Of a stretch of 64,000 nucleotides of DNA, positions 5,648 to 35,900 are shown piece by piece. Both the position numbers and the translations under genes were made by a program. This DNA is from a virus, in IMG/VR virus record IMGVR_UViG_3300013099_000021, positions 1-64,000 of that record, one strand, 5' to 3'. Positions within the stretch are counted from its first letter, which is position 1; each line of letters begins with the position of its first letter. Under the pieces are notes generated by a model. It worked only from the letters and a program-made list of their open reading frames with translations, searched no databases and was not told the origin of the DNA.

Positions 5648-6130
5648 ATGAAACAATCTGACATTCAACAAGTTCAAGACCAGTTGACGCTCTACGCTGT
5701 GCCACAAGCGAAGCTATCAATGGTCAGTGTAGGAGAGAAAAGACCCATAAGATCAAGCCAATCTATTTATGAAATCATGCAAGAAAACTGGGAGGCTGGA
5801 ACCATTGGCGCAACAGAGTCTTTTTACCTGATCATGCTGAACAGAGCAAACAGAGTGAACGGAATAATAAAGCACTCAACTGGTGGGTTATCCGGAACAG
5901 TCATTGATACCCGCTTATTGCTGTGCGCTGCGCTCCTCTCCATGTCATCCTCCATCGTTGTATGCCACAACCATCCATCCGGGAACAAGCAGCCCAGTGA
6001 TGCAGACATTAAGATCACGGAGAAGCTAAAGAAGGCAGCCAAACATATGGAAATAACACTACTGGACCATGTTATTATTACCGAACAAGATGGATATTTT
6101 TCCTTTGCTGATGAAGGTATAATTATTTAA
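5648..6130 (+). CDS. radC: RadC-like JAB domain protein
   Basis: 160 residues. The JAMM/JAB metal site is complete: HNHPSGNKQPSDAD at about 110-123 gives the HxH-S-D pattern, with an upstream acidic residue in NWEAGT. Full-length bacterial RadC is longer and has an N-terminal helix-hairpin-helix that is absent here, as in many phage and plasmid copies. JAB-type RadC is found on mobile elements, but its biochemical role is unsettled. First gene of the rightward unit; AAACCAATAC lies eight bases before the ATG. Confidence 0.85.
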   Translation: MKQSDIQQVQDQLTLYAVPQAKLSMVSVGEKRPIRSSQSIYEIMQENWEAGTIGATESFYLIMLNRANRVNGIIKHSTGGLSGTVIDTRLLLCAALLSMSSSIVVCHNHPSGNKQPSDADIKITEKLKKAAKHMEITLLDHVIITEQDGYFSFADEGIII

Positions 6131-8341: not shown

Positions 8342-8799
8342 AATGCCTTGAAAAACCTCTCATTCAGCTTACCGACCTTGGCTGTTTGTTCCAATGGAGA
8401 GTATTTATAACCGATGATTCCCCCTTGTGTAGTTGGGAAAACCTTCTTATACTCCTTCTTCAATTCTTCCTCCAAAGCCTTTAAAGGACCCCAATCGGCT
8501 GATTTAACGTCTAATGCGTAAGATATTCGGGCTTCTTCTGTGCCTTGGTCCAGTAGAGCGTGTTCTCCGGGCGTTAAAAGCACAATGTTCTTGGCATAAT
8601 ACTTAAAGTAGGGATATTTGTTCTGCCCTTTAGCCAGGACATGAGCAAAGCAGTTGAAGAATAGATCTGTATTAACAAACTCCCGGAGGAATAGATTAGA
8701 TACCATCGATTTCTTATTGGAGTTAATCCAAATCTGTTTGAAGATAGCAACCTGGGTTAGCTGCGCTCCCCGGCTTACTCTGTTATACTGGTGGCTCAT
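8326..8799 (-). CDS. Putative HNH-like nuclease
   Basis: 157 residues from the ATG at 8799, which overlaps the upstream stop. The central segment CFAHVLAKG...YPYFKYYAKNIVLLTPGEHALLDQG (about residues 50-87) has the H, N and second H with a following D in the order of an HNH beta-beta-alpha-metal site. The match is by motif order only, with no zinc-knuckle cysteines. Alternatively an inactive relative. Confidence 0.5.
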   Translation of the reverse strand: MSHQYNRVSRGAQLTQVAIFKQIWINSNKKSMVSNLFLREFVNTDLFFNCFAHVLAKGQNKYPYFKYYAKNIVLLTPGEHALLDQGTEEARISYALDVKSADWGPLKALEEELKKEYKKVFPTTQGGIIGYKYSPLEQTAKVGKLNERFFKALKKGR

Positions 8800-9043
8800 A
8801 ACTTGATTTTTCAATATCGACTTGAAATAAATGCCTGGTGAATGGGTGTAAGTTAACAAACTCTGATTCGGGAGGAAAGATCTCGGCCATATAAACATCA
8901 TCAGGACAAAATCTATATCTGGCTGCCTTCATCTCCTTGTAGGAGGGCATAACGCCTCTTGCTGAAATAGACAGGTGCCATCCTCCACCGTCAATAGTGA
9001 CAATGATAAAACAGCGACCCGTCTTAAATACTCCTTCCTTCAT
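8783..9043 (-). CDS. DUF7694-like small protein
   Basis: 86 residues. GWHLSIS near 21, PSYKEMKAARYRFCPDDVYMA in the middle and a final FVNLHPFTRHLFQV match, as I recall it, the small DUF7694 family found in phages, of unknown function. Its ATG follows the stop of the RyR-Acb2 gene by one base. Confidence 0.65.
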   Translation of the reverse strand: MKEGVFKTGRCFIIVTIDGGGWHLSISARGVMPSYKEMKAARYRFCPDDVYMAEIFPPESEFVNLHPFTRHLFQVDIEKSSYEPPV

Positions 9044-9044
9044 G

Positions 9045-9683
9045 CTACAACTTCAAATTATCAGCCGTAGGCTCTATCTTAGCATTAGAGGGATTGTAGC
9101 TGTTTGGGTAAGGGTTAGGCTCATTAAGCCTCTTCAGATCCATTCCCAGCCACATAATAGCCTCCTGTACCTTTGTAATGGCAAGCGACCTCTCCCTGGA
9201 ACCATGACACCCCTTTATGTTTTGCAGTTGAGCGTCCAGGCCAACACGGAGGAGTTTGTCTGCCTTGACATCTTTCCGGTGAGCTTCTTCTTGATCAATA
9301 ATCCTCTGATCCTCAAAATTGAAATGAAATGGCTCCTGGACCAGGGAATCGACAATGCTTGCAAACAAGAGATCCTTCTTCTGCTGAAATACAGGTAACT
9401 TGTCGAATGTAACGATACAAGGGTGTGTCTTAGCACCGGGATCTTTCACCTCTCCCCACTCCCAACCATCATCAAGTTTATCTTTCACCCAGTTATTGTG
9501 CTGCGCTTCATGCCCTGCTCTCGGATTTTCAAGCCTGAACTGAACACCTTTAATGGCTGAATCCTGTTGCCATTTAGGTGCCTCAAACCAATCTGATTGA
9601 CTGTCATCACCATTAGCCTCGCACCATGCCTTGTTAGCCTGGTGGCATACAATGGCCACGTAAATAATCATACTTTCATTCAT
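9045..9683 (-). CDS. RyR domain fused to an Acb2/Tad1-type hairpin domain; candidate anti-CBASS/anti-Thoeris sponge
   Basis: 212 residues from the ATG at 9683. Residues about 5-115 (HQANKAWCEANGDDSQ..W, GHEAQHNNWVKDK, DGWEWGEVKDPGAKTHPC, QQKKDLLF) are a RyR domain as seen in phage proteins. The C-terminal part, about 155-212, has SRERSLAITKVQEAIMWLG and then NPYPNSYNP...EPTADNLKL. The first of these matches the helical hairpin shared by the Acb2 and Tad1 sponges, which sequester CBASS cyclic oligonucleotides and Thoeris signals. The fusion is visible here; its activity is inferred. It has its own promoter and a leader hairpin. Confidence 0.7.
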   Translation of the reverse strand: MNESMIIYVAIVCHQANKAWCEANGDDSQSDWFEAPKWQQDSAIKGVQFRLENPRAGHEAQHNNWVKDKLDDGWEWGEVKDPGAKTHPCIVTFDKLPVFQQKKDLLFASIVDSLVQEPFHFNFEDQRIIDQEEAHRKDVKADKLLRVGLDAQLQNIKGCHGSRERSLAITKVQEAIMWLGMDLKRLNEPNPYPNSYNPSNAKIEPTADNLKL

Positions 9684-9770: not shown

Positions 9771-9802
9771 CAAATGTAGGGAATCAAATACTATTTAACA
9801 AG
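9771..9802 (-). promoter_or_regulatory. Bacteroidota-type promoter for the RyR-Acb2 unit
   Basis: Minus strand TACATTTG (9778-9771), identical to the -7 box at 22105, with CTTG (3 of 4 matches to TTTG) 20 nt upstream at 9802-9799. The -33 box lies within the 3' end of recT. Expected start near 9764, giving an 80-nt leader to the ATG at 9683. Confidence 0.6.
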
Positions 9803-11319
9803 GTGTTAATCTCTGCCGTTGTTGCTTTGTAGCAAAAATCCTCCTTCACCCTGTACTCTTGAAACTGGGGGAACTTGGTTTTAAGCATGGTGTCAAAGAC
9901 TCCGTTATCAACACCGGCCACGTTAGCCATCTCTTCGAATAAAGTCTTAACCTGATCAAAACCCCTCTTGCCATCCACCAGGTCAGGAACATCGATGTTG
10001 AACTTATTGGTGTCCACTCTTTCCTCGATAGGAGGCAAAGGATCTAGTTCCGGCTCTGGTTCCTGATTGCCCACTGGCTCCACCTCGATCTCATCAGTGG
10101 TCCTGGACTCATACTCGGCCTGTTGAGGATCTTCCGGTATCTTCTCTCCTATTGGTGGCATCTTGGCCACTGTGGAAGGATCACTTAGATCTGGATTTGC
10201 TGTTGGATCAAACTTCTCAATCATTCCGACCACATTACCCTCATAGAAGGAAAGGATAATCAACCGGAGCTTCTTATTGGTATTCTTCCCTGGATCAATT
10301 TCCCTGGCCTTGGTCATCAGCCCATCACACTCAATTATAGTATTGAGATCTGCTGTGTCCATCTCCTTCATCTCCTCCATAGAGTAAACCATTACGAACC
10401 CCGGTGTGCCGTTAAGCATGGTGCCCTTGCTCTCTCTGGCTGGTTGATCGTCCTGGGTAACTGGATATGACTCTCCCAGTGTAGAAGGATACTTCTTCGC
10501 CTGACTGTCATCGGGCATAGCATCATGCTCTACTGGTGGTGGTGGCTCCAAATCCCCTGCTCTCTTGTCGATCTGGGAATTAGCCTTGCTGGTCAGATCC
10601 TCGCTCCTATTCTTGGAGAAATCCTTATCCGGGATAATAACCTCTGTGCCTTGATTGGTGGTGACTACAACAGTGGTGTCCTGTGGCAGATCCATCGCTT
10701 CCTCAGTGGTGTAACTACCACTCAGCACATCAGGAAACAGATCCCTGGCAAGGAAGCCAAGCACCCTGTATGCAATCATCCTCTCCGGATACTTGTACCA
10801 TGCAGATTTAAGGTACTTCCAACCATCCTGCCCATTGATCATCTTCTGAGTAATCCACAAGCCTGCTCTCTTAGCCTGGTCTACACCAAAGGTCCTGGAC
10901 ATGGTTTCCTGTGTATCGGATCTCTTGGCAGTAATGGTACACTCATAACTTTCGTCACTAAGCGAACCAGTGATAGTTTCTTTCCAAGTTCCCGGGGCGA
11001 GCTTACCTGATTTGAAGATAAGCGTCTTAGCTGCATCTCCCTTGATACTGAGCAGACCGTTCACTGGGATAATGTGCTGCAGAGCTACCAATGGCTTTAG
11101 GCCAAGGTCATCACCATGCACACAAACCAGGATAACCGAAGCTACATTCCCTTTGGCGTAGTCCGGCTTCCCTTTGTCATTCTTCTCGTAGAAATGATCA
11201 GGGGCCAGCCTGCTGTCCAGTATCATCTGTGCAGCCACCTTCATCTCATCTAGATTTTTAATTGCAGTGTCCAGGAATGTTCCTGTTCCGACTACTGCCA
11301 CTTTTCTTTCTTGTTCCAT
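9784..11319 (-). CDS. recT: RecT-like ssDNA-annealing protein with long acidic C-terminal extension
   Basis: 511 residues. The first half has the RecT pattern: LGLKPLVALQHIIPVNGLLS (about 74-93), a middle FGVDQAKRAGLW, and KYPERMIAYRVLGFLARDLF (about 177-196) followed by GSYTTEEA. RecT proteins pair complementary single strands and usually work with a 5'-3' exonuclease, here the YqaJ gene at 17044. RecT is normally 250-350 residues; the extra C-terminal half is acidic and Pro-rich with a final small helical domain, perhaps a partner-binding tail as in SSB. Confidence 0.7.
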   Translation of the reverse strand: MEQERKVAVVGTGTFLDTAIKNLDEMKVAAQMILDSRLAPDHFYEKNDKGKPDYAKGNVASVILVCVHGDDLGLKPLVALQHIIPVNGLLSIKGDAAKTLIFKSGKLAPGTWKETITGSLSDESYECTITAKRSDTQETMSRTFGVDQAKRAGLWITQKMINGQDGWKYLKSAWYKYPERMIAYRVLGFLARDLFPDVLSGSYTTEEAMDLPQDTTVVVTTNQGTEVIIPDKDFSKNRSEDLTSKANSQIDKRAGDLEPPPPVEHDAMPDDSQAKKYPSTLGESYPVTQDDQPARESKGTMLNGTPGFVMVYSMEEMKEMDTADLNTIIECDGLMTKAREIDPGKNTNKKLRLIILSFYEGNVVGMIEKFDPTANPDLSDPSTVAKMPPIGEKIPEDPQQAEYESRTTDEIEVEPVGNQEPEPELDPLPPIEERVDTNKFNIDVPDLVDGKRGFDQVKTLFEEMANVAGVDNGVFDTMLKTKFPQFQEYRVKEDFCYKATTAEINTLLNSI

Positions 11320-11928: not shown

Positions 11929-12295
11929 ACAAAAAATTACTGAACGAAACTAAACTCTACTTGACCTCACAAAACATCACATAACTAAACTTCAAAATAC
12001 TGCACCTAACTCGACTTTACTTTACCTTGCGTTACTAAACATCACATCACACAACAGTACCAAACTTTAAAATACTATACATAACAGGACCCCACTTTAC
12101 AACACAAAACCAAACATCAAAATACTTGACTTCACAACACTTCACAGAACCCAACTTTACATAACATAACAACAAATTACTTTACAAAACTCAACTCAAC
12201 GGCACATAACGTGACACTACCTCACTATACTTTAAAATACTATACCGCACAAGACAATACCCTACCCCACATAACGTCACATGACCCTACCTCAA
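11929..12295. repeat. Phased pentanucleotide array: (ACNNN) x about 73, AA punctuation every about 60 nt
   Basis: On the plus strand AC recurs at every fifth base from 11929 to 12290 with no phase slip. About 66 of 73 slots are AC, one is GC (12029), and the others are AA at 11934, 11994, 12069, 12119, 12174, 12234 and 12294. The three bases between are highly variable, so it is not a simple tandem repeat. In the operon transcript it reads GUNNN. It starts at the stop codon of the polymerase-like gene (12292) and ends about 20 nt before the next ATG. It has no codon structure. Function unknown; protein wrapping or loading is a hypothesis. Confidence 0.95.
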
Positions 12296-12870
12296 TAGTT
12301 TAATTGGTTGTGTTTCGATGTCCAGTTTCGGTCCCCTGGTGGATTCCAGGGTATTCCCAAAAAGTCAAAGAACGCATATTCAGTATCAAAGACCGGGGGC
12401 TTTGTTTCCTTCCCCTTAAACTCCTTTTTCAGGGTCCATTTAGATGCTTTTTTGTCACATTCAGCCTTACGCCTCAATCCCCACTCGGTACCGCACCATC
12501 CTAACCGGTTCCATGTAATTGCCAGTTTGATATGGCTGAAAGCAGAAGATCCTGTTCTGATTGCCAAAATTCGACCATAATCATGGCGCTGCGCTATATA
12601 AAGTTCCACCTGGATCTTGTCTTTAGGGTACTTAAACCGCTTTAGACGCTTACCATTGACAACCATCCCTGGATACTTTTCATGGAAGAGATTGTCCAGG
12701 CTGTTAAAAGCGCTCTCAGTGCAAACTATCTCAATATCGCCAACCTCCTTACATCCCCTGCGAACACTACCAGCTATCTCCCTGACATCTGTGTATGGTT
12801 CGATGAGGATAAGGAACCGTCTGGCTACATTGAGTGCCTTTTCTAATTTGATCTTTTCTCCGCTACTCAT
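12292..12870 (-). CDS. Family-X DNA polymerase-like nucleotidyltransferase
   Basis: 192 residues from ATG 12870, overlapping the upstream stop by 8 bp. IAGSVRRGCKEVGDIEIV (about 32-49) is the polymerase-beta type GS...G and acidic pair, here D-x-E. A third acidic residue is likely the E of IQVELYIAQ, followed by RTGSSAFSHI. Phage relatives are single-domain nucleotidyltransferases that may fill gaps or tail ends; the substrate is not evident. The gene's stop abuts the pentamer array. Confidence 0.75.
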   Translation of the reverse strand: MSSGEKIKLEKALNVARRFLILIEPYTDVREIAGSVRRGCKEVGDIEIVCTESAFNSLDNLFHEKYPGMVVNGKRLKRFKYPKDKIQVELYIAQRHDYGRILAIRTGSSAFSHIKLAITWNRLGWCGTEWGLRRKAECDKKASKWTLKKEFKGKETKPPVFDTEYAFFDFLGIPWNPPGDRNWTSKHNQLNY

Positions 12871-13546
12871 CTCTGAGCTTTTTCGCAAAGTACGTCTGTC
12901 CCTTTCCTGTGATCTTTGTTGTCCTGCTAGTGAAAGTTTGATCTGCTGCTCCAATGGTTCTCTCAATCACTTCAAATAAACCTTGCTGAACATAGTTCTG
13001 ATACGGTTCATTGCCTCTATTAAGGTACCCATTGTCCCGGAACCACTTAAATAACCTGTTCTGGCCTATCTCAAAACCGTCATCGCTCAAAATCTTTGCG
13101 AAGTGTCTTGTTAGAATAGAGTTATCACTTCCGGAAACAGCATCAGCAAAAACAACCTTTGATCTGTCATTTTCGATTTTCGCTTCAAGGGCAAGTCGCT
13201 TTTGATACTCCTCCTGCCAGTTCTGAACCAGTTTAAGAACTGTCTCTGGATTGGTGAAGTCAATAGCTTTCTGTTCCAGCTCCTCCCACCTACGGTTAAT
13301 CTTTATCCTTAACTCAACACTATACCCAGTCATCAAGTCAAATGTCTGTATCCGGCTTAGAAGAAATTGAGGCTGCTCTTTGTTCTGCTCGTTCCGATAA
13401 GAGGACCGCTCAAGTTTGGGCAGTCCTAATTTCTCGTAGTTAACATTCAGAGTTTCAATATCACGAAGAACGTGCTTGTGTTGCTTCCCTGTCAACTCCG
13501 CAATCTCACGGCTTGACATCGACTGCTTATTTGCTAATTCTTCCAT
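12863..13546 (-). CDS. Rha-family regulator with KilAC-like C-terminus
   Basis: 227 residues from ATG 13546 in a TAATG overlap. Residues about 8-95 (SSREIAELTGKQHKHVLRDI..., FLLSRIQTFDLMTGYSVELRIKI...) are the Rha domain. The C-terminal part (SDDGFEIGQNRLFKWFRDNGYL, ITGKGQTYFAKKL) is the KilAC antirepressor domain. Such proteins are DNA-binding regulators in phages. Its position inside the replication operon suggests timing control. Confidence 0.8.
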   Translation of the reverse strand: MEELANKQSMSSREIAELTGKQHKHVLRDIETLNVNYEKLGLPKLERSSYRNEQNKEQPQFLLSRIQTFDLMTGYSVELRIKINRRWEELEQKAIDFTNPETVLKLVQNWQEEYQKRLALEAKIENDRSKVVFADAVSGSDNSILTRHFAKILSDDGFEIGQNRLFKWFRDNGYLNRGNEPYQNYVQQGLFEVIERTIGAADQTFTSRTTKITGKGQTYFAKKLRDE

Positions 13547-23935: not shown

Positions 23936-26900
23936 TTAATTACTGGACTTCTTTGCGTCCTTAATATCTTTATTCCCAGACGCCTCCTTGAAAAAGTCCC
24001 TTGGCTTCCCTGTCTCTTCCACTGGAGCGTCCAATGCTTTTCTTATTTCGTGTGCCGTTTTCAAAAGTATTGCTCCCTGCTCTGCCTTTAGATCATAGTC
24101 GGACTGTACACCCTCACTAAAATAGCCATCCAGGGCAATCCTGAAAGCTACATAATGACCCTCTGCCTTCAGGTGTGGGAATTTATTGTACAAAGTCATA
24201 AGATGCTGAACGTGCTTGGACCCGTAGATCTGAGGATCCTTGTAGATACCCAAATCATCCCACTGCAAAGCTACACTTCTGTTTGGATCATCCAGGATAG
24301 GGAGATACTCAAACGCTCCTATCGGATACTCAGCATAGGTAGAGAACTGTGAAAATAGGAAGTAATCCAACATTCTTGGATCGATGAAGGGATTGTCCTC
24401 CTGGTTCCAGGTGATAGCATCGGACCCCTCCATTAACAGCCTGGAAAACTTACTCGCATTGTGCGTTTCCCGGGATGCGATAGCCAGGTCTTTTTCCGAT
24501 GGAGGAATAATATGCTTCTGCCTGAACATATCATAGTTGGCCACCACTCCTATCCCTCCGGAGAACCCACTGGTAATCCCACTTATACTGTAAGGATTCA
24601 TGCTTGATATGAATGAGAACCACCACCCATCACTGAAAGCATCCTTATCATTATATAGAGCCATATCCATGCCCCGTTGAGCAACAGATCCTATTCTGCC
24701 CAGTTCAAACGGCTTAGGTATAATAATCCACCCACGGCCAAAAGGATTGGGGAACCGGTAGAACCCATCTCTCAGGTAGTTTGGATGGCTCAGATATTCC
24801 TCCCTCTCATCATCCGTGATATATCCAAGTGACATATACAGACTGTTGAGGATCGATGGTAGCATACTAAATGCAGCTAAGTGAACTGCGAATCGTGCTG
24901 GATTCTTCCTCGCTGTCCTGGCAATCTTTTCCATGCCCCTCACTGCTGCGCTGGTGAAGATCAACACCTTGTTTATCTCCTTGGCTACCGTCCCGGCTGC
25001 TGCAAAATCCATCAGATCTCTGGCTTGATATGCCGCCCGGACTGCTGCTTCCTGGTGAGTTAATCCATACTTCTTTATACCCTCATTGTATGATGCCATG
25101 TATTGAATCCTACGGGTAGGGCGCTCACTCATGTTAAACTGTCTGTTAACAAACTGAAACCCTTTCCCAACCATGTTATACTTGGTGTTGGGATTCCCTT
25201 TCTTCTTGGCTTTCATCATATATTGATGATGTGGCAGCTTACTCTCCTTTCTTTGAGATCCAATGATCTTTTTTCTCGGCACAAAACCAAACTGTCCACC
25301 ACCATACCTCTCAAAGGCATCGTCAGCCTTTTTGTTTGGTAATATATACCATGGTCGTGCATACCTTTTAGCCGTCCCTACCACTAAGAATTGCCCAAGG
25401 TCACGTATCATGTTCCTGTTGACAAACCTGATGGATTTGGTAATAGCCCTCCGGAGTAGCTGCGGAAAGAAAGAGGCAATCTTCATTCCCAAGCTGTCAC
25501 TGACAGGCAACAGGTCTTTCCATGTCTCATAAAGGTACTTATCACCGAACACCAGGTATTTTTTCTTGCCTTTCTCATAAAAGGATATGTTATATCCACT
25601 TGGTTCTTTGTAATCCTGAACCCATGCGATCTCGCCATGCTTAACCACATCCCCTTCGTGCATATTCCTACCCACAGCGCCCCTTTTAAACATATCAGCA
25701 AAAGTTTGCACTGAATAGTTCATGTCACCAACATCAACCAGGTTCATCCACGACTTTATCATGCTGGACACTGGGTTGTCTATTGGCCTGTCACTACCTT
25801 TGAATGGGAATACAACTTCTCTCGGCTGCAGCCCTGTTCCTGTTGGCCTCTGCTGTTCTTCAAATTCAAGATCCTTGCCCTCAACCATATCTTTTGGCTC
25901 AATAGCCTGCAGACGGTTCATGGCAACATAGTCCAGGTTCTCGTTCTGAATCTGATCTTTGGTTTCTTTGGATATAAGACCTGCCTGATAAGCGTATTCG
26001 GACCATTGCTTGCTGATCTCTCTGTATCTCCTCCAAAACTCCTTGATACCATCATAAAGCTCTGGGTCAGTGATCTTCATCGCCTCAAATTCCTTTACGG
26101 CTGCAACGGCCACATCGTAATCCCTCTGTCCAGACTGTGCAACACCAGTGGAAACAACGTCTGTAAAGTCATAACGACCTGGCGCTACTATTTCACCTTT
26201 CTTGTTATAGGTTGGTTCGTTGCTGATCCATACATCGTCAGGATCCAAGACACCCTCATCCATCCTTGTTATGATGTCATTGATCTTCCCGGCCCACATC
26301 TCAATGATATGAGGGTGTTTAGCCAGTATCTTCAAAGGTGGCAGTCTGTCTGTTGTAGTTTCCAAATCATGTCTGAGAAGCCTTGCCTGGTACTTCTTTG
26401 GTAATTCAACAGCTCTCTCCGAAATACCAACCGCCATAGTTATATCTGTATTCTTTTCCCATTGAGCATTACTTGTTCCTGGAATAGCTTCATACATCCA
26501 GTCGAAAGTCATAGCCTGTCCGGTTTTTGGATCAAGTACCCTGCTTTGATCAAAATCCATAACACCTTTGTCCATTAGGTTCTGAAGTTTCACATCGAGT
26601 CCCAGGTGGTTCCTGACAACGATCTCGAAGTTCTGTAATGGGCTTAGTTGGTTAGGATCGTCAATGTCCGTAATCCCTTGCTGCTTTGCAGCGTATTTGA
26701 AAGCCTCAACAAGTGGATCTATGAAATACCATATCCTCCTACCCATCTTATCAAAGATGGTTGTTTGGAACTGGCCCTCCTTATTCTCCCTGTTCCAGGC
26801 TATACCCTTCCTTCCTACCTTGGGATCCAGACGAGCATTGGTGAGTGTCTGGTCAAGTGCAGAGGATCCGTATAACGTCCTGACATCTTCACTGAATTGT

Positions 26901-29900
26901 TCCAATCCTTCCCAAACCTTTGTGTGAGGCTGCATCTGAGATCTGAACCATTCATAGGTTGTTGGAAATCGGCTCTCCGCTTCTGATGGGTTCACTACCC
27001 AGGCCCGGATAAACTCAGCCATACCCTCAGCCATCCTGTACCTTTCCGGATTCTTATGTCCCCGGGGAGGCTTGCTGCCATACTCCCACAGCTTTGATAA
27101 CTCCGCTTTCAACTCATTGTATATAGGATACGCTTTTGGACCCAGTAACCCGTACTTGTCATCTAAGTAGTGACCTATCTCATGCGCTGCGACATCCTCA
27201 TCACCAAAATGCTTTATACCCAACTTACCAATGGTGGGATCATAGGATCCTACAGCTCTCCTTGCTGATGGCCTGCGAGTGTATTGGATCTTTTTACCAA
27301 GAGCTTTGGATATATCATCCTGGATCTCCCATAGCTTCTTCGGGGAAAAGCCTGGCTTGGGTGGTTTTGGGCTTGGAACAACCCTGTCTTTGTGGGGCGT
27401 ATAAATCATGCCCTTCGTGTCATTATGGGGGTTCGATAACCCTCCCCTGTCTATTGGACCGGTTGATTCTCCTGCTCCATATTCATCCATGGTAGAGGCA
27501 GCATCGGTTTGATCATTCCCTTTCTGGACCTGCTTATGGTCAACCTCCAACATGGTCTTAAATCGCTCATTAAGGACAGTTAGCAGTGGTTGTAGGCTCT
27601 CCTCTGGGAACCTGGCCACCATCCTGTCGTTGATCTGCTCGAACATACCATTTCTGACAATAGACTTTATGACCTCATTGGAGTAATACTTAGAACCCCT
27701 CTGTGTTGAGGCTGGTACTTTCAGTTCGTACATCTGCGGGGAGTCGTAATCCATCTTTTTGATTATGATGTCCCTTGAAACATCCTCCACAAAGGTTTTT
27801 GGTGCTAGTGCCTTGATGATGTTTGCAGCTTTATGGATCGGCATCCTGGCTGTATTGCTTGTCTCATTGATCCAGTTCTCAGGCATGAGGATCCCTTTCA
27901 CTATACTGCCATCCTCCATGGAAAACTTTACCAGCCGGCCTTTTTTATACTTGTTCATGCCCTGCAAAATATTTCCGGTAACAAGATACCTGGTTTCCCT
28001 GGTCCTGCTTTTCTTGATGTTATCCCAGTCCTCCATGATCTCATTGGACTGAGCATTGGAAATGTGATAGCTGTTCCCAATGATTGCGTCCAGGTGATTG
28101 TACTTGCTGACGGGGATCCGGAACATCTTCCGGCTATCTGTGGTAGCAAACTTTAACATCACATTACTGGGCACCCAGGGATTAGCTTTATTCATGTTCA
28201 CATCGAAGGAAACAAACACTCCTTTGTTCATGCGGACAAGGCCCAGTTGCTCATCATCGGTGAACGGAACCTCTAATCCTTTCCCGGGTTCGAAGAAATC
28301 AAAATACTTATTAAACTTGGCTTTGTTCAACTGGGACACGACTCTGAGGTTATTGATGCGATCACTCTCCCTCTCATCTATCTCGTTCTTTTTTAGCTCA
28401 TACTCACGAACCTTATCTTCCGGTGACAAGCCGTCTTTATCTTCGATCTTCTGCCTCCACAACGCTCTCGCCTCTTCTGAGCTGCGCTGTACATTTCGTA
28501 TCTGAGTGTCAAGCTGAGACTCTATGCCCTTCTCCATGGCGGCCCTTAAATCCTCCACATGGTTGTCGGGAACTTTTTCAAGCTGTTCTTCCAGTTGCGC
28601 TTTGGTAAACGGCTTCCTGGTAACATTCACCTCAGCCTCATTCAATACGGTATCGTCACCAAAGTATGAATACCCTCCATTCCCCTCGATCTCAACGGTG
28701 CTTTTCTTGAATACTGCGTCAAGCTCCTCATTGGTAACCATCAGGTCATTGGTGCCTGTGCTGTTCCGATATTCAATATCGTTCCTGTACCGTTCAGCAA
28801 CCTCACGATAAAATTCCTCCTGCATCCTGGATGGAAGGATCTGTATCTTACCTGTAACCCTATGGGCTGCGTTCTGCTTATTGGGATCCTTGCCCCCAAT
28901 GTTTAAAGGATCACCAATTCGCCTGTTAATGTCTGGGTTCTCCTTCAGGTACTCAAACACCACATCATCACCATACTTGTTAAGGAAGTCATCAACATCA
29001 GCAAGGCTTTTGCTATGCTTTTGGTTCCCAGAGGTGTTGGCATCAAGTGATTTCAGCTTCTTAGCGTTCATCATAAACATTCGTGACTCAGCCGGGAGTG
29101 TTGAGGTGACCATGTTATATATTGGCTTATTCAACTGGTCTGCCCGATAGATCCTACCAAACAACTGGACCACTACATTTATATCCAAGTCATTTTGCAA
29201 GGTCCACATAGTCCTTTGGCTGACATCAAGGAAGTCTGGCGATGAGTGCATCGATATACCCGTTGATCCCGCCCTATTCACAATGGCTGCTACACCCGGG
29301 TTGTTGTTAAATCTGGCTACCGCCTTGATCTTATCACCCCTGTCATTGGTTACAAATTCCCCCCTGCTTCCATCTTCGTTAAGTTTGAACATAGTGTGGC
29401 GGCCTGTGATCTCAACAGCCTCGAATCCTGCATCAGTAATCCCTTTTCGTAATATGTCGATAGGGGAGATGGGGATCCCAGTGGTCATCCGTTGGATCTT
29501 CTCCATCATACTGTAATACCTGGACCTTCCGGTTGCCGTTAGATCCTCGGGGTTCAGGTCTGCCTTAACATCATTACCCTGGGCATCCGTTTCCGTGTAC
29601 TTCATCACGGTTTCCATCCCACGTTTGAGGACATGGGAGAAGTCCAATGGGATAGTTTCCCCCTTCTTCAGTTCTAAGTTCTCTACCATTTTCTGAAACA
29701 TAGCCTCCATGGTACTCTTCAGGGCTATGACAGGCTTGCGTCCTGCTTTCAGATCCTCAACGATAAGAGGCACTGCCTCCTTAACCTTGATGGATAGTAA
29801 TAGCTGGTCAATAATATTCCAAACACGGCTGAAGTATGGTGCGTTATTTACCCCTGCCTGAGAGGTGCCTTTCCTCATCCCAACTTGTTTGCCCTCACGC

Positions 29901-32900
29901 TTAATATCCTCGTTCATTCCTTCCAGGACCGGATTGATAAAATCCCTCTGAAAGTCCACGATCTCTTGTAAGACCCCGGTAATGTTATCGAAGTCCTCAA
30001 CCATCCTCTTCCCCAGCTCGGGGTTATAGGTTCTTTGTGAAGGATCTGTATCACCGATCACAACATAATTCATTTCGGCATCCATCTTGAACCCGATCTT
30101 GGCGAACTGTCCTGACTCAGCTAATTGATGTGTTATGATTTCCTGCAGGGCAGGTCCTCCCGCCAGGATCCCATCAATCATTTCCTCCATGGTCATGTTT
30201 GCTTCCTGCAATACAGTTTTCATAGAGTAGAGCGGCATATTGTCTGGGCGCTTGGCGTAAGTGGCCGAAAGGAATAATCCTCCCTGGGTTCCCAATAACC
30301 AATCCTTAAAGAAATCACCAGTATTGCTCATGCCACTAGCCTCATGGCTCTCATCCATAACGAATACCACATCGTTATCACGGATCAGTTTATTCAGGAA
30401 TGATCTCTTCTCTGAATCCCGGCCCTCGGTGGTGAACTGAGAATAGGTAGTCATTATCATCTGAGTTCCCTCTGGTAGCTTATGTGTACCTGGTCTTTTC
30501 TCAGTTCCAATAATCCTATTGTTCTCCTGTGGATCCACCTCCCACTTCACATTCCCATCCTTATCAAAGACCCTCGCTTTCTGTCCTGAACTTGCAAACT
30601 GCTTGTTCATTATGAAGGGTTTGTAGTTTGGGGATCCAATATTCACCATGTCCCTGTAAATATCAGTGAACAGGTCAGCGCCTTTGGTAATGAATATGGG
30701 TAGCTTGCCGTTTTCAATGGCATACCGGATCACTCCTGCAGCTATACGGCCTTTCCCTGTGCCGGTCTGGTGCCCAATGATCATGGCGTTCTTACCCTCA
30801 ATATTATAGATAGCCTGACCAATACCATCAACCTGTTCAGCAAACATACCGGTGCCCTTCATCTCATCCAGGCTATTATAATTCAGCTTTTCACGAACAT
30901 ATTCATCGATGTCACCTATCTCATCACTCAACTGCATTAAGGCATCTTGCATCTCGGATGCTATGGAAGCAGGAACAATAAAGTTCCCGGATCCCAAATC
31001 GCTTAATGGTCTGTGAGATGTTACATCATCAGCACTAATATCACTTATGCCAAGCTCTCGCTTAGTACGCTGATCAGGCTTTCCAATGTTGTTTGTTGGT
31101 AGATCGAGCGCACTTCTTGTTGGCCGAATTTCTCCAAACCGTCCGACCTCTCCCCTTCGTCCCGTCTGATCAGTTCCCCCATCTGATTTATGTATTGTGG
31201 ACTTGACATTATCTGTTCCGCTTGCCCTTGTACGTCCGGCTCCGGGATCAGGTCGAGAAGTGAATGGATTAGTGACTCTCTCGTTGTCGGCTGCTCCTTG
31301 TTCAGCAGGGAGATCAGTTTCTTCGGAAACCGTAGGGTCAACTCCTGAACGCTCTGTGGCTGGATTTTGGTCGGTAGCTCTACCGCCCACAAGCGAATCA
31401 GTTCCTCGCATGGCATCCACTTTTCGTTGTAGGCTATTGTTTTCATTGGCTTTAGTTTTTAATACGGTAATACGTTCACGAACATCGGTCCAGTTCTCCA
31501 CTGGATTAAAGGCTTCTGATTGTAATGGAGCTGCACCTTTCTTCTCAGTCTTTCTTCCGTTGACCAGGATAACTTTAACAGGATAGCTTGCGCCCATGGT
31601 CTTGTACAGATCCCCTGGGAGTTGAATCACATCCTCAACATAGTAGTTCTTGTATAACCAGTTGAAAAACTGAAGATCGTTTTTATCGCCAGGCTTTCCG
31701 CTTCCTACCATCTGGCCGTTCGCTTTCCACTTAATATGGCCTCCGGTAATGATGGCTGCTTTTCCTGTGTTGCTCAGTGACTTTAAAGCATGGGCAACCG
31801 GCACATATTCACCATGTAGCCAGTATCCTTCAAAATCTTCAGTGGTCCCGCCAAAAGGAGGATTGATATGTACTGCATCTACGGTCTGGACATCTAATTG
31901 GTCCTGTATTCCATGAGTGCTGTCCTTGTTAAATACCCTATACCCTTGTTCGATAAGGTTTTGATACCTACCCTCATCGATCTCATTGGCCCGGACACCC
32001 CTACGGTCTGCACTGATCAACAATGCCCCGTTCCCTGCACTGGGATCCATGACATTATCGACACTTTTGGCATTGGTGTACTCTCCCATCAGGAAAGCCA
32101 GTGGCACAGGTGTGCTGTACTGTTGCTTCTCCTTAATGGCACTGGTCCGGTATGATAAGGTTGGAAATGTAGAGTACAATCCCTGGATCCTTGAAAACTG
32201 ATCAGCTTCATTTATGGTGTTGTCCATAGCTATGCTACGGGCAACTTCCACCATGGCCAGCTCTGCCCTCTCACGGATGGCAGTCTTGTTGGTGACACCC
32301 CACTTGGCAGCTATCTTGATTAATTCTCTGAAATCAGCAATAGGCTCACCTTTCCAAATACGGTTCTTCACCTCCCAGGTAAATGCTCTCTGACGGATAA
32401 GTTTATGCTTTGCCTCTGTCTCGCCAAGGGACCTGGTGAAAAAAGCTATTGAATCGTCAACCTTTTTCTGTGAAGAATCCTGGTGACCTTTATCCAAGGC
32501 CCGGGCATGGGATCCTATCCCGTACATAGCCATGATTGGAGATGATGGATAGAACTGGTCAGCCAAATACTTTATTTCCTGTATCCCTTTTCCTGTAAAT
32601 CCTAACTGAGCAAGTATCTTGTGGTGTTCATTGGTCAGTTTAACAAGCCGGTTCAGATCCTCTTTCCTTGCGTTTTTCAATACATAAGGGGTGAGGGGAT
32701 CCCCACGCTTAACATTACTCTCCAGAAGGTCCATTACATTTTCCAGTGTATAGTCCTCCTCAACGGGGATCGGAGCGAATATAATCTTCCCGGTTTGAAT
32801 ATCATCTTGCCGCTTTTCAAACTCGGCCACCCTTCGCTTGCTTGCGAGATCCTGCTCCCATGCCAACTCAGAACCATCATAAGTTCTTGGCTCCCTATAC

Positions 32901-35900
32901 ATCTTCTTTTCAAGCTGCTCGGCTTTGGCCATGTCACCTATAGACTTGTAGATGTCAATGATCTTGGTCAGCTCGGTCCTATATTCTTTGTTGTCGAACG
33001 GCTCAACCTCAGTGGCTTTCCCTTTTGCAATCAAATCCCTGAACTTGTCAACGATGACAGCTTTCTTGCTCTCTCCTTTGATTGATACAGGATCCTCTAT
33101 GATGGCTACGGTCAGCTTCTCAAACTCTGCAGGAGCTTCACCAAACAATCCTCCCAGATCTTTCACCCTCTGATCCCTGGGGTCCGTCCAATCCTCAACC
33201 CGGACTACCTTAACCTCCTTATTCAATTCAGGAATAAAGAACACCTTACCCACAAGATCTGAATACTCCGACTGTGTAGGGATGGTTGTCTGTCCTGCAG
33301 CTTCGTTCCCGGCAGTAGACTTTGACTGTTCAAGGTTATTAATCTCTCTGTTAATGGCTTCGATCTGAGCATCAAATGGCTGCAACGCTTTCTTGATATT
33401 CTCGTCTGATGGATCAAATGTTTCATCAAACATACCTGGTGCGCCAGTCTCTACTTTGGTGTCACCGAACAGCCCTTTGCGACCAGTAAGTTCGGAATAC
33501 TTCTTCTGCTTCTGCTTCTGGATGGTTTGGATCTGATTACGCTTATCCGTGATCTGCGCATCGATTTCGTTGATTACCCTTTCTCTTTCCCTTTTATTTT
33601 CTCCGGGTTTTGTGACCTTAGCTTCGCCAGTGTCAAGGCGTTCTTCACCAGGCTCGGTGACGGCTGCTTCTTCTGTTTGCTTGATTTCATCTTCGATATT
33701 TTTTAGGTAACGACTTTTTTCCTCCTCCGTCATAAGACCCATCTTAATGGCCTCATCGACATTTTCAGGACTCAGCTCACCAAACTGGTTGGTGAACTCG
33801 TCCAGTTTAGCGTCAGCAATAAGGTTGTCTATTTCCTCAACTGAAACGCTGGTAGCAGGGTGCCTCTTTGTCTTTTTTATTTCGATAGCCCCAACTGCCA
33901 ATGAATTTTCCAGTGCATCAAGTAGCTTATTCGCTGCAACGGTTTTCTTTCCTTCCTCAATATTTTTGATGCCCGAAGCGATTTGACTGGCCTTTAAGTC
34001 CACATCATAATCCATTAAAAATCCGGGATACGTGATGACCTTATTCACAAAATCAATAAACCCCTGATCCTCATATTCGTTGAGTGCAAGGTGCGCATCG
34101 ATCTCTTCCTTGGGAGTGCGCATCTCCGTTTGTTTGATCTTCTTGCCATTCTCATCCTTAACAACCATCTGCCCATCTACCATGCCGACAATGTATCCAA
34201 GATCCGCAACAGCCCTGCTTATCTGTTGCATCAGGTCCCCCTTAATCTGAGTGTGAGTGGCTGGCGTTTTGTTCCATTGGGCAACTCGAATTACCAGTGT
34301 GTCATGTTTCCTTTCCCTGGCTTTGGGATCCTCTACTGGTGGAGGTGCTGGTGGTTCTACCGGCTCCTCTGTTGGTGGGGTGGGTTCTTCAAATACTTCC
34401 CCGGCCAGGACATTTGTAATATGATCCTCAATGGAGATGCCTTTATCCATTTCTCCTTTCTGAACAGTAGAAATATCCTGCCACACATACCACATAGCTT
34501 TGTCAAACTCCTCATCGGTGATGGTGGGTGCAAGCTCACGGATCTTCTTCTCAATCGTGGGTTGGATCTTCTGTGCAAATTCGTTTACCTCGTCCTGCCA
34601 CTGATCAACTGCTGCCTGCTCATCCTTCTCAATCTTCGCAATCTGATCTTCCAATTTCTTACGATCTTTCTTCTGGTCCAGGCTCAACCTACCCTTAAAT
34701 TCTTTTTTGAGGCGTTCTTCGAGATCTGCTTTATCCTTGGTGATCTCCTCCACCTCTGCGGCAACGGCATCCTCCAAGACAACGAACCTCTTATTAACAT
34801 CGCCCAACTTACCAGATAGGATCAAAGCTGGATCCCCAAGGCCCTGGATGGGTTCACCCGTAGGTTCTTCCTCCACAACCTTCTCCACAACAACTGCCCC
34901 TGCCGTACCAGGTGGCTCCTCTGGTGGCTTCTTATCATCCCTGATCTTTCGTGCAAGCTCCATGGCTTTGTACACATTAAGGTCAAGATCCGGCTGTGGT
35001 AATCGTTCGATGGGGTGGATAGACAGGGCCTCTGCCAATTCCTCAATGGAGGCGTAGTCCTGTCCTCCATATCTGATCATGCCTTCCTTCACTGGTGGCA
35101 TGGCTTTTCTTTCCTCAATAGCTGTTAAGGATTCCTCTTTTATTGCCTCGGCTTCAGCCCTTAATATTGCATAATCTTCTGGGGTGTTGATTTTATGCCG
35201 GCCCGCTCCAAATAAGCCTATTGAATTATCAACGGTAAGATGATCTTCGGCATTTTTGACGCTGCCAGTTAGACCCTCTTTCTCCATTTTGTCAATAGCT
35301 TTAACGACACGATCAGCCACCTCCGTTCTTTCCTGAAGCTGATATTGGTCCATGAAGGGAGTTTCAACAAACCTCTCAGGTCTTTTCTCAACTACTTCTG
35401 GCTTTGGTGGTACTCCTTCATCAGGCTTTCCCTCGACTCCTTCGGTAATTGTGCTAACTTTAATCTTGTCTGTAAGTTCAACCTCTTCGGTGACGAACTC
35501 TCCTTTTTCGGCTTGCTCATTGATCCTATTATTTAGCTGTGTGATCTCAAATTCCAAGACAGACATCATCTCATCGATCTGCTCCGTAGTCTGCTTACGC
35601 TTGGGATCGGACTTCAGTGCTGCCAGCTTCTTATATTCTCCATAAAGGTTGTCGGCTGCCATCTTCAGCCGGTCATTCATTACAGGCTCTCCCCTGTCAA
35701 TAGCATCAAGGGTTTCATCGGTTGCGTCCTCAATGGTAATCCCAGGTGTATCTGGAATATTGTACTTCTCCTGCTCCTCCTTAATCCGCTTGTCATCAAA
35801 GAATTTCCGTTCAGACTTCACCTTCTCCACATACTCAGGATCCAGTTTAAGACCGGCTGCTGTTCGTTTTGGTGGTTTTGGTGGTTCCGTTGGTGTGGGT

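Follow-up and report, generated by a model that had tools for sequence, protein, structure and literature searches.

Here we report a phage gene that encodes, in a single chain, an RyR domain joined to a tailed helical hairpin of the Acb2/Tad1 type, together with a recurrent physical linkage between RyR domains and sponges in other phages and records. Both halves resemble proteins already described, whereas their combination in one chain appears to be new. The gene lies in a window of 64,000 bases, the first part of a virus record of 70,816 bases, and had been singled out in a preliminary description as an RyR domain fused to an Acb2/Tad1-type hairpin, a claim that held: the open reading frame carries both domains, and the combination recurs in other phages. 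Sponges such as Tad1 and Acb2 bind several signals through one fold. Phages also appear to gain breadth by joining separate sponge folds, repeatedly and in different orders, and as judged from sequence one such protein might disable two types of bacterial immunity simultaneously, which would matter for phages facing hosts with several nucleotide-signaling defenses. The fusion also hints at what the NPYP-tailed hairpins, a large family in phages of Bacteroidota (crAss-like phages included), may do. No description of RyR-sponge fusions was found in the literature searched, although some may be covered by Hadary 2025 (doi 10.1101/2025.08.24.671296), which is cited by the preprint on the RyR-domain family RyDEP (PMC13232231).

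The gene and its neighbors are listed in Table 1. Read from an upstream ATG, rather than from the MNESM start, the protein would have 226 amino acids. Compared with four relatives, both halves of the gene vary most at third codon positions, as expected for a real, conserved gene. It lies in a replication and recombination region that also encodes a RecE-like exonuclease, RusA, a primase/helicase and a KilAC antirepressor, and the downstream DUF7694 gene is a possible operon partner. No sigma-70-type promoter or terminator pattern was found between positions 8700 and 9850, and no tRNA genes were found in the window. The fusion is flanked by the DUF7694 and RecT-like genes in two other loci as well (L002 and L157); L157 and a further locus, L289, represent the same phage as L002 or a near-identical one. 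Since within the stretches compared this gene order is common to the window, L002 and L157 only, and absent from the other fusion loci, the fusion occurs in different phages.

Table 1. Positions of the fusion gene, its parts and its neighbors in the window
Feature	Position	Strand	Remarks
DUF7694 gene, next downstream	8783..9043	-	86 aa; PF24746, E = 3e-16
Fusion gene, RyR + tailed Acb2/Tad1-type hairpin	9045..9683	-	212 aa; homologues align from MNESM
Conserved C-terminal tail, residues 188-212	9048..9122	-	near-invariant P191, Y192, P193, P198, D208
Helical hairpin, residues 123-187 (helices 123-157, 163-187)	9123..9317	-	PF24729, Tad1/Acb2 profiles, model
S162-R163-E164, start of second helix	9192..9200	-	common to Tad1 and Acb2 homologues (alignments)
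RyR (RyDEP-family) domain, residues 1-116	9336..9683	-	PF02026, AlphaFold2 model, RyR3 Repeat12 fold
D104	9372..9374	-	counterpart, by spacing, of catalytic D117 in phage DyoEdafos RyDEP
H87	9423..9425	-	counterpart, by spacing, of H100 in RyDEP, which coordinates phosphate
W65	9489..9491	-	counterpart, by spacing, of W78 in RyDEP, which braces the adenine
H62	9498..9500	-	counterpart, by spacing, of catalytic H75 in phage DyoEdafos RyDEP
RecT-like annealing protein gene, next upstream	9784..11319	-	

Several other genes of the window deserve mention in their own right. A 224-aa protein (12292-12966, minus strand) has weak, below-cut-off matches to DNA polymerase beta thumb and palm domains and is conserved in L002 and L157. 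A free-standing RadC-like JAB-domain protein (5648-6130, plus strand) sits among a run of small plus-strand open reading frames. A giant polyvalent protein is encoded by an open reading frame of 4477 aa (23936-37369, minus strand) that matches the Strawberry-notch helicase C domain, AAA_34, LPD38 and N6_Mtase; we take it to be reminiscent of DarB-type antirestriction proteins.

The N-terminal half was recognized as an RyR domain by profile comparison, a check proposed along with the original assignment: PF02026 matches residues 59-104 above its curated cut-off (E = 5.2e-9, 36.7 bits against 27.4). An AlphaFold2 monomer model, built on a 122-row alignment with a mean pLDDT of 89.5, has block means of 93-98 up to residue 110, and VIA-align placed residues 1-120 on Repeat12 of human RyR3 (Z = 10.0, rmsd 3.0, 120 residues aligned). 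Four residues (H62, W65, H87 and D104) were equated with pocket residues of RyDEP by their spacing and by the matched range, in which residues 56-111 of the query correspond to residues 70-125 of the 35TM chain. All four are kept in 70 of 70 RyR-filled rows of one alignment (A3) and, in a wider set, in every one of 102 distinct RyR rows.

According to the published account of this family, DyoEdafos gp78 (RyDEP) counters Thoeris and opens 2'cADPR and 3'cADPR as an inverting glycosidase; H75 and D117 form its catalytic dyad, and W78 and H100 contact the ligand (PMC13232231). The same account reports that six of eight homologues bind 2'/3'cADPR, that none of these six cleaves them, and that two of the homologues, one from a Ruegeria phage and one from a Pectobacterium phage, are nanomolar sponges active in B. 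subtilis (PMC13232231). The RyR domain of the window shares 47% identity with its counterpart in a Ruegeria phage, vB_RpoP-V12, and 44% with the one in a Pectobacterium phage, Nepra. All four pocket residues are present in RyR domains of one Ruegeria and one Pectobacterium phage, so that they do not separate a hydrolase from a sponge; since cleavage is reported, in that account, for DyoEdafos only, the RyR half of the window protein is more likely to sequester 2'/3'cADPR than to cleave them. The preliminary suspicion that this domain binds nucleotide-derived ligands is supported in part, at the level of a family that sequesters or cleaves these molecules (PMC13232231).

The C-terminal half had been assigned to the Acb2/Tad1 hairpin on the strength of the segment SRERSLAITKVQEAIMW (residues 162-178), and the profile evidence agrees with that assignment. 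In the full-length protein, PF24729 (Acb2_Tad1_hairpin) matches residues 153-179 with E = 7e-6, its 26.6 bits falling slightly short of the cut-off of 27; the C-terminal module alone scores 28.2 bits (28.4 in a genome search), which exceeds it. The match spans only positions 26-52 of the 58 in the profile. The same family matches all 20 relatives of the module (best E = 5.7e-9). A profile of these 20 modules searched against the PDB retrieved Tad1 chains only, with CmTad1 (8kbb) at E = 5.2e-7 and the others at about 0.07-0.09, and a chance match is ruled out by the agreement of the 20 relatives and of the PDB matches. Finally, hhalign aligned the module to an Acb2-type alignment with 97.4% probability over 24 columns, against 0.1% for the RyR profile used as a negative control.

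Two long antiparallel helices are predicted for this half (residues 123-157 and 163-187 of the monomer model, pLDDT block means 74-98), followed by the tail, modeled with low confidence (41-76). Among the matches listed by Foldseek and by VIA (50 rows for the latter), the hairpin had no Tad1 or Acb2 chain, only generic helical hairpins; as the RyR half fills the listing, this is no evidence against the hairpin. The best match among viral predicted structures was M4PQN8 of Sulfitobacter phage phiCB2047-B (E = 1.1e-12, 200 columns, 38% identity), with an rmsd of 18.3 across both domains, so that the domain arrangement differs; a crAss-like Acb2/Tad1 hairpin protein was also among the viral matches (E = 6e-3). 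The elements that precede the hairpin in known sponges are missing: the alignment comparison found neither of the Acb2-type N-terminal motifs (YHxPKxGQPEKY or FNPSGD) before the hairpin of the window, and the N-terminal beta-sheet domain of Tad1 is absent from the fusion protein, its place being taken by RyR. In the Acb2/Tad1 hairpin, the Arg of SRE sits in the cyclic-trinucleotide pocket.

Directly after the second helix comes the sequence PNPYPNSYNPSNAKIEPTADNLKL, a tail whose conservation beyond the hairpin had been pointed out beforehand and is confirmed by an alignment of 63 distinct modules drawn from 81 sequences: P191, Y192 and P193 are present in all rows, and S195, P198 and D208 in about 98%. 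The tail is not peculiar to the fusion, since free-standing proteins of 75-100 aa consist of the same hairpin and tail, and it is thus part of the hairpin module. Of 153 loci, 70 contain the tailed hairpin without an RyR domain, and six records of 50,697 contained it in a search whose query was inexact in its six leading letters. Named carriers are Tenacibaculum phage Gundel_1, Bacteroides phage BK735P4, cr111_1 and ctcc615; as these are phages of Bacteroidota, crAss-like phages or phages of the gut, the phage of the window probably infects a member of the Bacteroidota. The YNPSN of the tail might be an echo of the FNPSGD of Acb2, which we offer as an idea only.

The tailed hairpin is also fused to unrelated domains, namely Phage_gp49_66 and DUF1508. 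The former fusion, detected with our own profile (L008, 650-1252), is followed 50 bp downstream by an RyR gene of its own; the latter occurs in one protein of L031 (4806-5225). Tailed hairpins with N-terminal extensions were seen in L073, L056 and L030, and in Tenacibaculum phage Gundel_1 (L155, 5968-6539) the free-standing tailed hairpin gene adjoins a DUF2829 (Tad2-like) gene.

Searching 326 loci with local profiles revealed 13 distinct RyR-sponge fusions. Eight carry the tailed hairpin (the window, L001, L002, L003, L004, L005/L006, L007 and L082, the hairpin of the last being detected by our own profile only). Three carry an Acb2-type hairpin, in the order RyR-hairpin in L131 and phiCB2047-B (L154) and in the reverse order in L207, with Pfam E-values for the hairpin of 4.5e-25, 5e-8 and 8e-14, respectively. 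The remaining two carry a Tad2-like domain (L116, E = 3e-22; L159, E = 1e-17), and L116 has in addition a separate hairpin gene 338 bp upstream of its RyR-Tad2 fusion. That the fusion is an assembly artefact is ruled out by its occurrence on unrelated contigs, by separate adjacent genes elsewhere and by phiCB2047-B, a sequenced isolate. A tree of the RyR domain (102 rows, 120 columns) is poorly resolved and would allow a single origin or several for each label; that the joinings were separate is argued instead from the variety of partner domains and from the inverted arrangement in L207. Related C-terminal extensions of about 150 aa were noticed by eye in two Pseudomonas RyR proteins (L156, 2995-3825, and L169, 5944-6831), and that of L156 matches no Pfam family.

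The linkage extends beyond fusions. RyR loci were gathered with the fusion alignment (in IMG/VR the best 80 of 463 confirmed, in GTDB all 31 of 31), and, after exclusion of 12 near-duplicate loci, 96 records (G000-G095, that of the window included) were searched for PF24729 and for the Tad2-like family PF11195. PF24729 was found in 13 of 47 and 7 of 49 records, PF11195 in 3 of 47 and 5 of 49; the set is somewhat biased, as the loci kept had been ranked by their match to a fusion. Twelve records found by way of the tailed hairpin were set aside (that of the window, L001, L002, L003, L004, L006, L007, L008, L009, L015, L082 and L157). Among the 84 left, PF24729 occurs in 11 and in nine of these is fused to RyR (L131) or lies within about 0.6 kb of it (L166, L181, L140, L098, L146, L172, L116 and L134), the distant cases being L171 at 5.4 kb and L100 at about 27 kb. 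PF11195 occurs in seven, being fused in L116 and L159, within 35 bp in L148 and L124, and not near RyR in L105, L171 and L172.

With one random place per record, 0.5 occurrences of PF24729 and 0.27 of PF11195 would be expected within 1 kb of RyR, against the nine and four that are fused or closer than 1 kb (P = 4e-15 and 1e-5 for all 84 records; 4e-7 and 9e-4 for the viral records alone). Random placement thus does not explain the linkage. About a dozen further loci have RyR and a sponge as separate neighboring genes; same-strand neighbors of this kind include those in L008/L009, L015, L226, L218 and L281. No sponge lay within the stretch fetched in 174 of 215 RyR loci, duplicates counted. In L171 (81-526 and 8844-9101), from Paenibacillus, a Tad2-like gene directly precedes an Acb2-type gene, with the RyR gene lying about 5.4 kb beyond and a second Tad2-like gene further on.

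From the domain assignments and the linkage, we lean towards the reading that the fusion is a phage counter-defense protein in which RyR binds cADPR isomers while the hairpin oligomerizes and holds a second nucleotide signal. The RyR half would take up 2'cADPR or 3'cADPR and block Thoeris effectors; the hairpin and tail would drive assembly and offer a second ligand site, most likely for cyclic oligonucleotides such as cA3, or for a cADPR isomer. Tad1 and Acb2 are described as forming hexamers in which dinucleotides and trinucleotides have pockets of their own, gcADPR being grouped with the dinucleotides in Tad1 (PMC12043709). The N-terminal motif of Acb2 and the beta domain of Tad1 help to form the dinucleotide or gcADPR pockets. 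Because both of these elements are missing here, a surviving trinucleotide-type site, or a new one formed together with the tail, would be likelier than a copy of the dinucleotide site. RyR would occupy the position of the Tad1 beta domain, and as RyDEP is reported to be a dimer (PMC13232231), three such dimers could make up the hexamer. We infer that both halves bind ligands, that the protein is oligomeric and that it protects the phage. The initial proposal of a dual sponge stands in part: both domains pass profile tests, and the varied fusions and neighboring genes support a joint counter-defense role of RyR and sponges, but the known ligand elements of the hairpin are absent. More tentatively, the fusions may represent modular multi-signal sponges, with the RyR pocket for cADPR isomers joined to interchangeable cyclic-nucleotide sponges (Acb2-type, tailed-hairpin or Tad2-like). 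In the tailed-hairpin version the RyR dimer would sit on a threefold hairpin core in place of the beta-domain dimer of Tad1, giving a hexamer with separate pockets that would disarm Thoeris plus CBASS or a cA3-using type III CRISPR system.

The same absence of the N-terminal ligand elements of Acb2 and Tad1 would also suit a protein in which signal binding falls to RyR alone, the tailed hairpin serving as an oligomerization handle for avidity or stability. The fusion of the tailed hairpin to unrelated domains in other phages also fits such a general assembly role, and records with lone tailed hairpins seldom contain a Tad2-like gene as well (1 of 50). We nevertheless regard this explanation as unlikely: other RyR fusions carry full Acb2-type hairpins or Tad2-like domains, both of ligand-binding sponge families, the conservation of the tail exceeds what assembly alone would seem to require, and the tailed-hairpin module mostly occurs alone. 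The retention of both catalytic-dyad residues, H62 and D104, raises the question of an enzyme joined to a sponge, in which RyR would hydrolyze 2'/3'cADPR like RyDEP of DyoEdafos while the hairpin sequesters a second signal. This is improbable, given that the tested homologues other than DyoEdafos are reported not to cleave despite high conservation (PMC13232231), that RyR domains of one Ruegeria and one Pectobacterium phage share the same four residues, and that an unsystematic inspection of the neighborhood showed no NARP1 partner. Least probable of all, and very much so, is a structural or regulatory protein in which neither half handles immune signals; RyR genes do stand in varied contexts, some of them among structural genes (Cellulophaga phage phi38:1), and one is labeled 'minor head protein' in Erythrobacter phage XM05, but the reported activity of the RyDEP family (PMC13232231), the invariant pocket residues and the linkage to sponge families all speak against it.

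Among known systems, RyDEP itself (DyoEdafos gp78, PDB 35TM) shares with the window protein the PF02026 family, the four ligand or catalytic residues by spacing, and a phage origin; the RyDEP study is reported to have used isolated R12-like homologue domains, whereas the window protein has a second sponge-type domain, and the words Acb2, Tad1, Tad2 and fused do not appear in its main text (PMC13232231). Tad2-like domains are fused to RyR in L116 and L159, and PF11195 has no match in the 70,816-base record to which the window belongs. Tad1 (CmTad1 8kbb, cbTad1 7uav) has the same C-terminal hairpin with the motif (S/C)RE..A.T...E..MW, and differs in its N-terminal beta-sheet domain (PMC12043709), which RyR replaces in the window protein, and in lacking the long conserved C-terminal tail. 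Acb2 belongs to the same hairpin family, and unlike Acb2 the window protein has no YHxPKxGQPEKY or FNPSGD motif and carries the added tail and the RyR domain. SUFG_00048 (M4PQN8) of phiCB2047-B likewise combines RyR and an Acb2_Tad1_hairpin in one protein, of 188 aa; its hairpin is of the Acb2 type, with the FNPSGD motif and without the NPYP tail.
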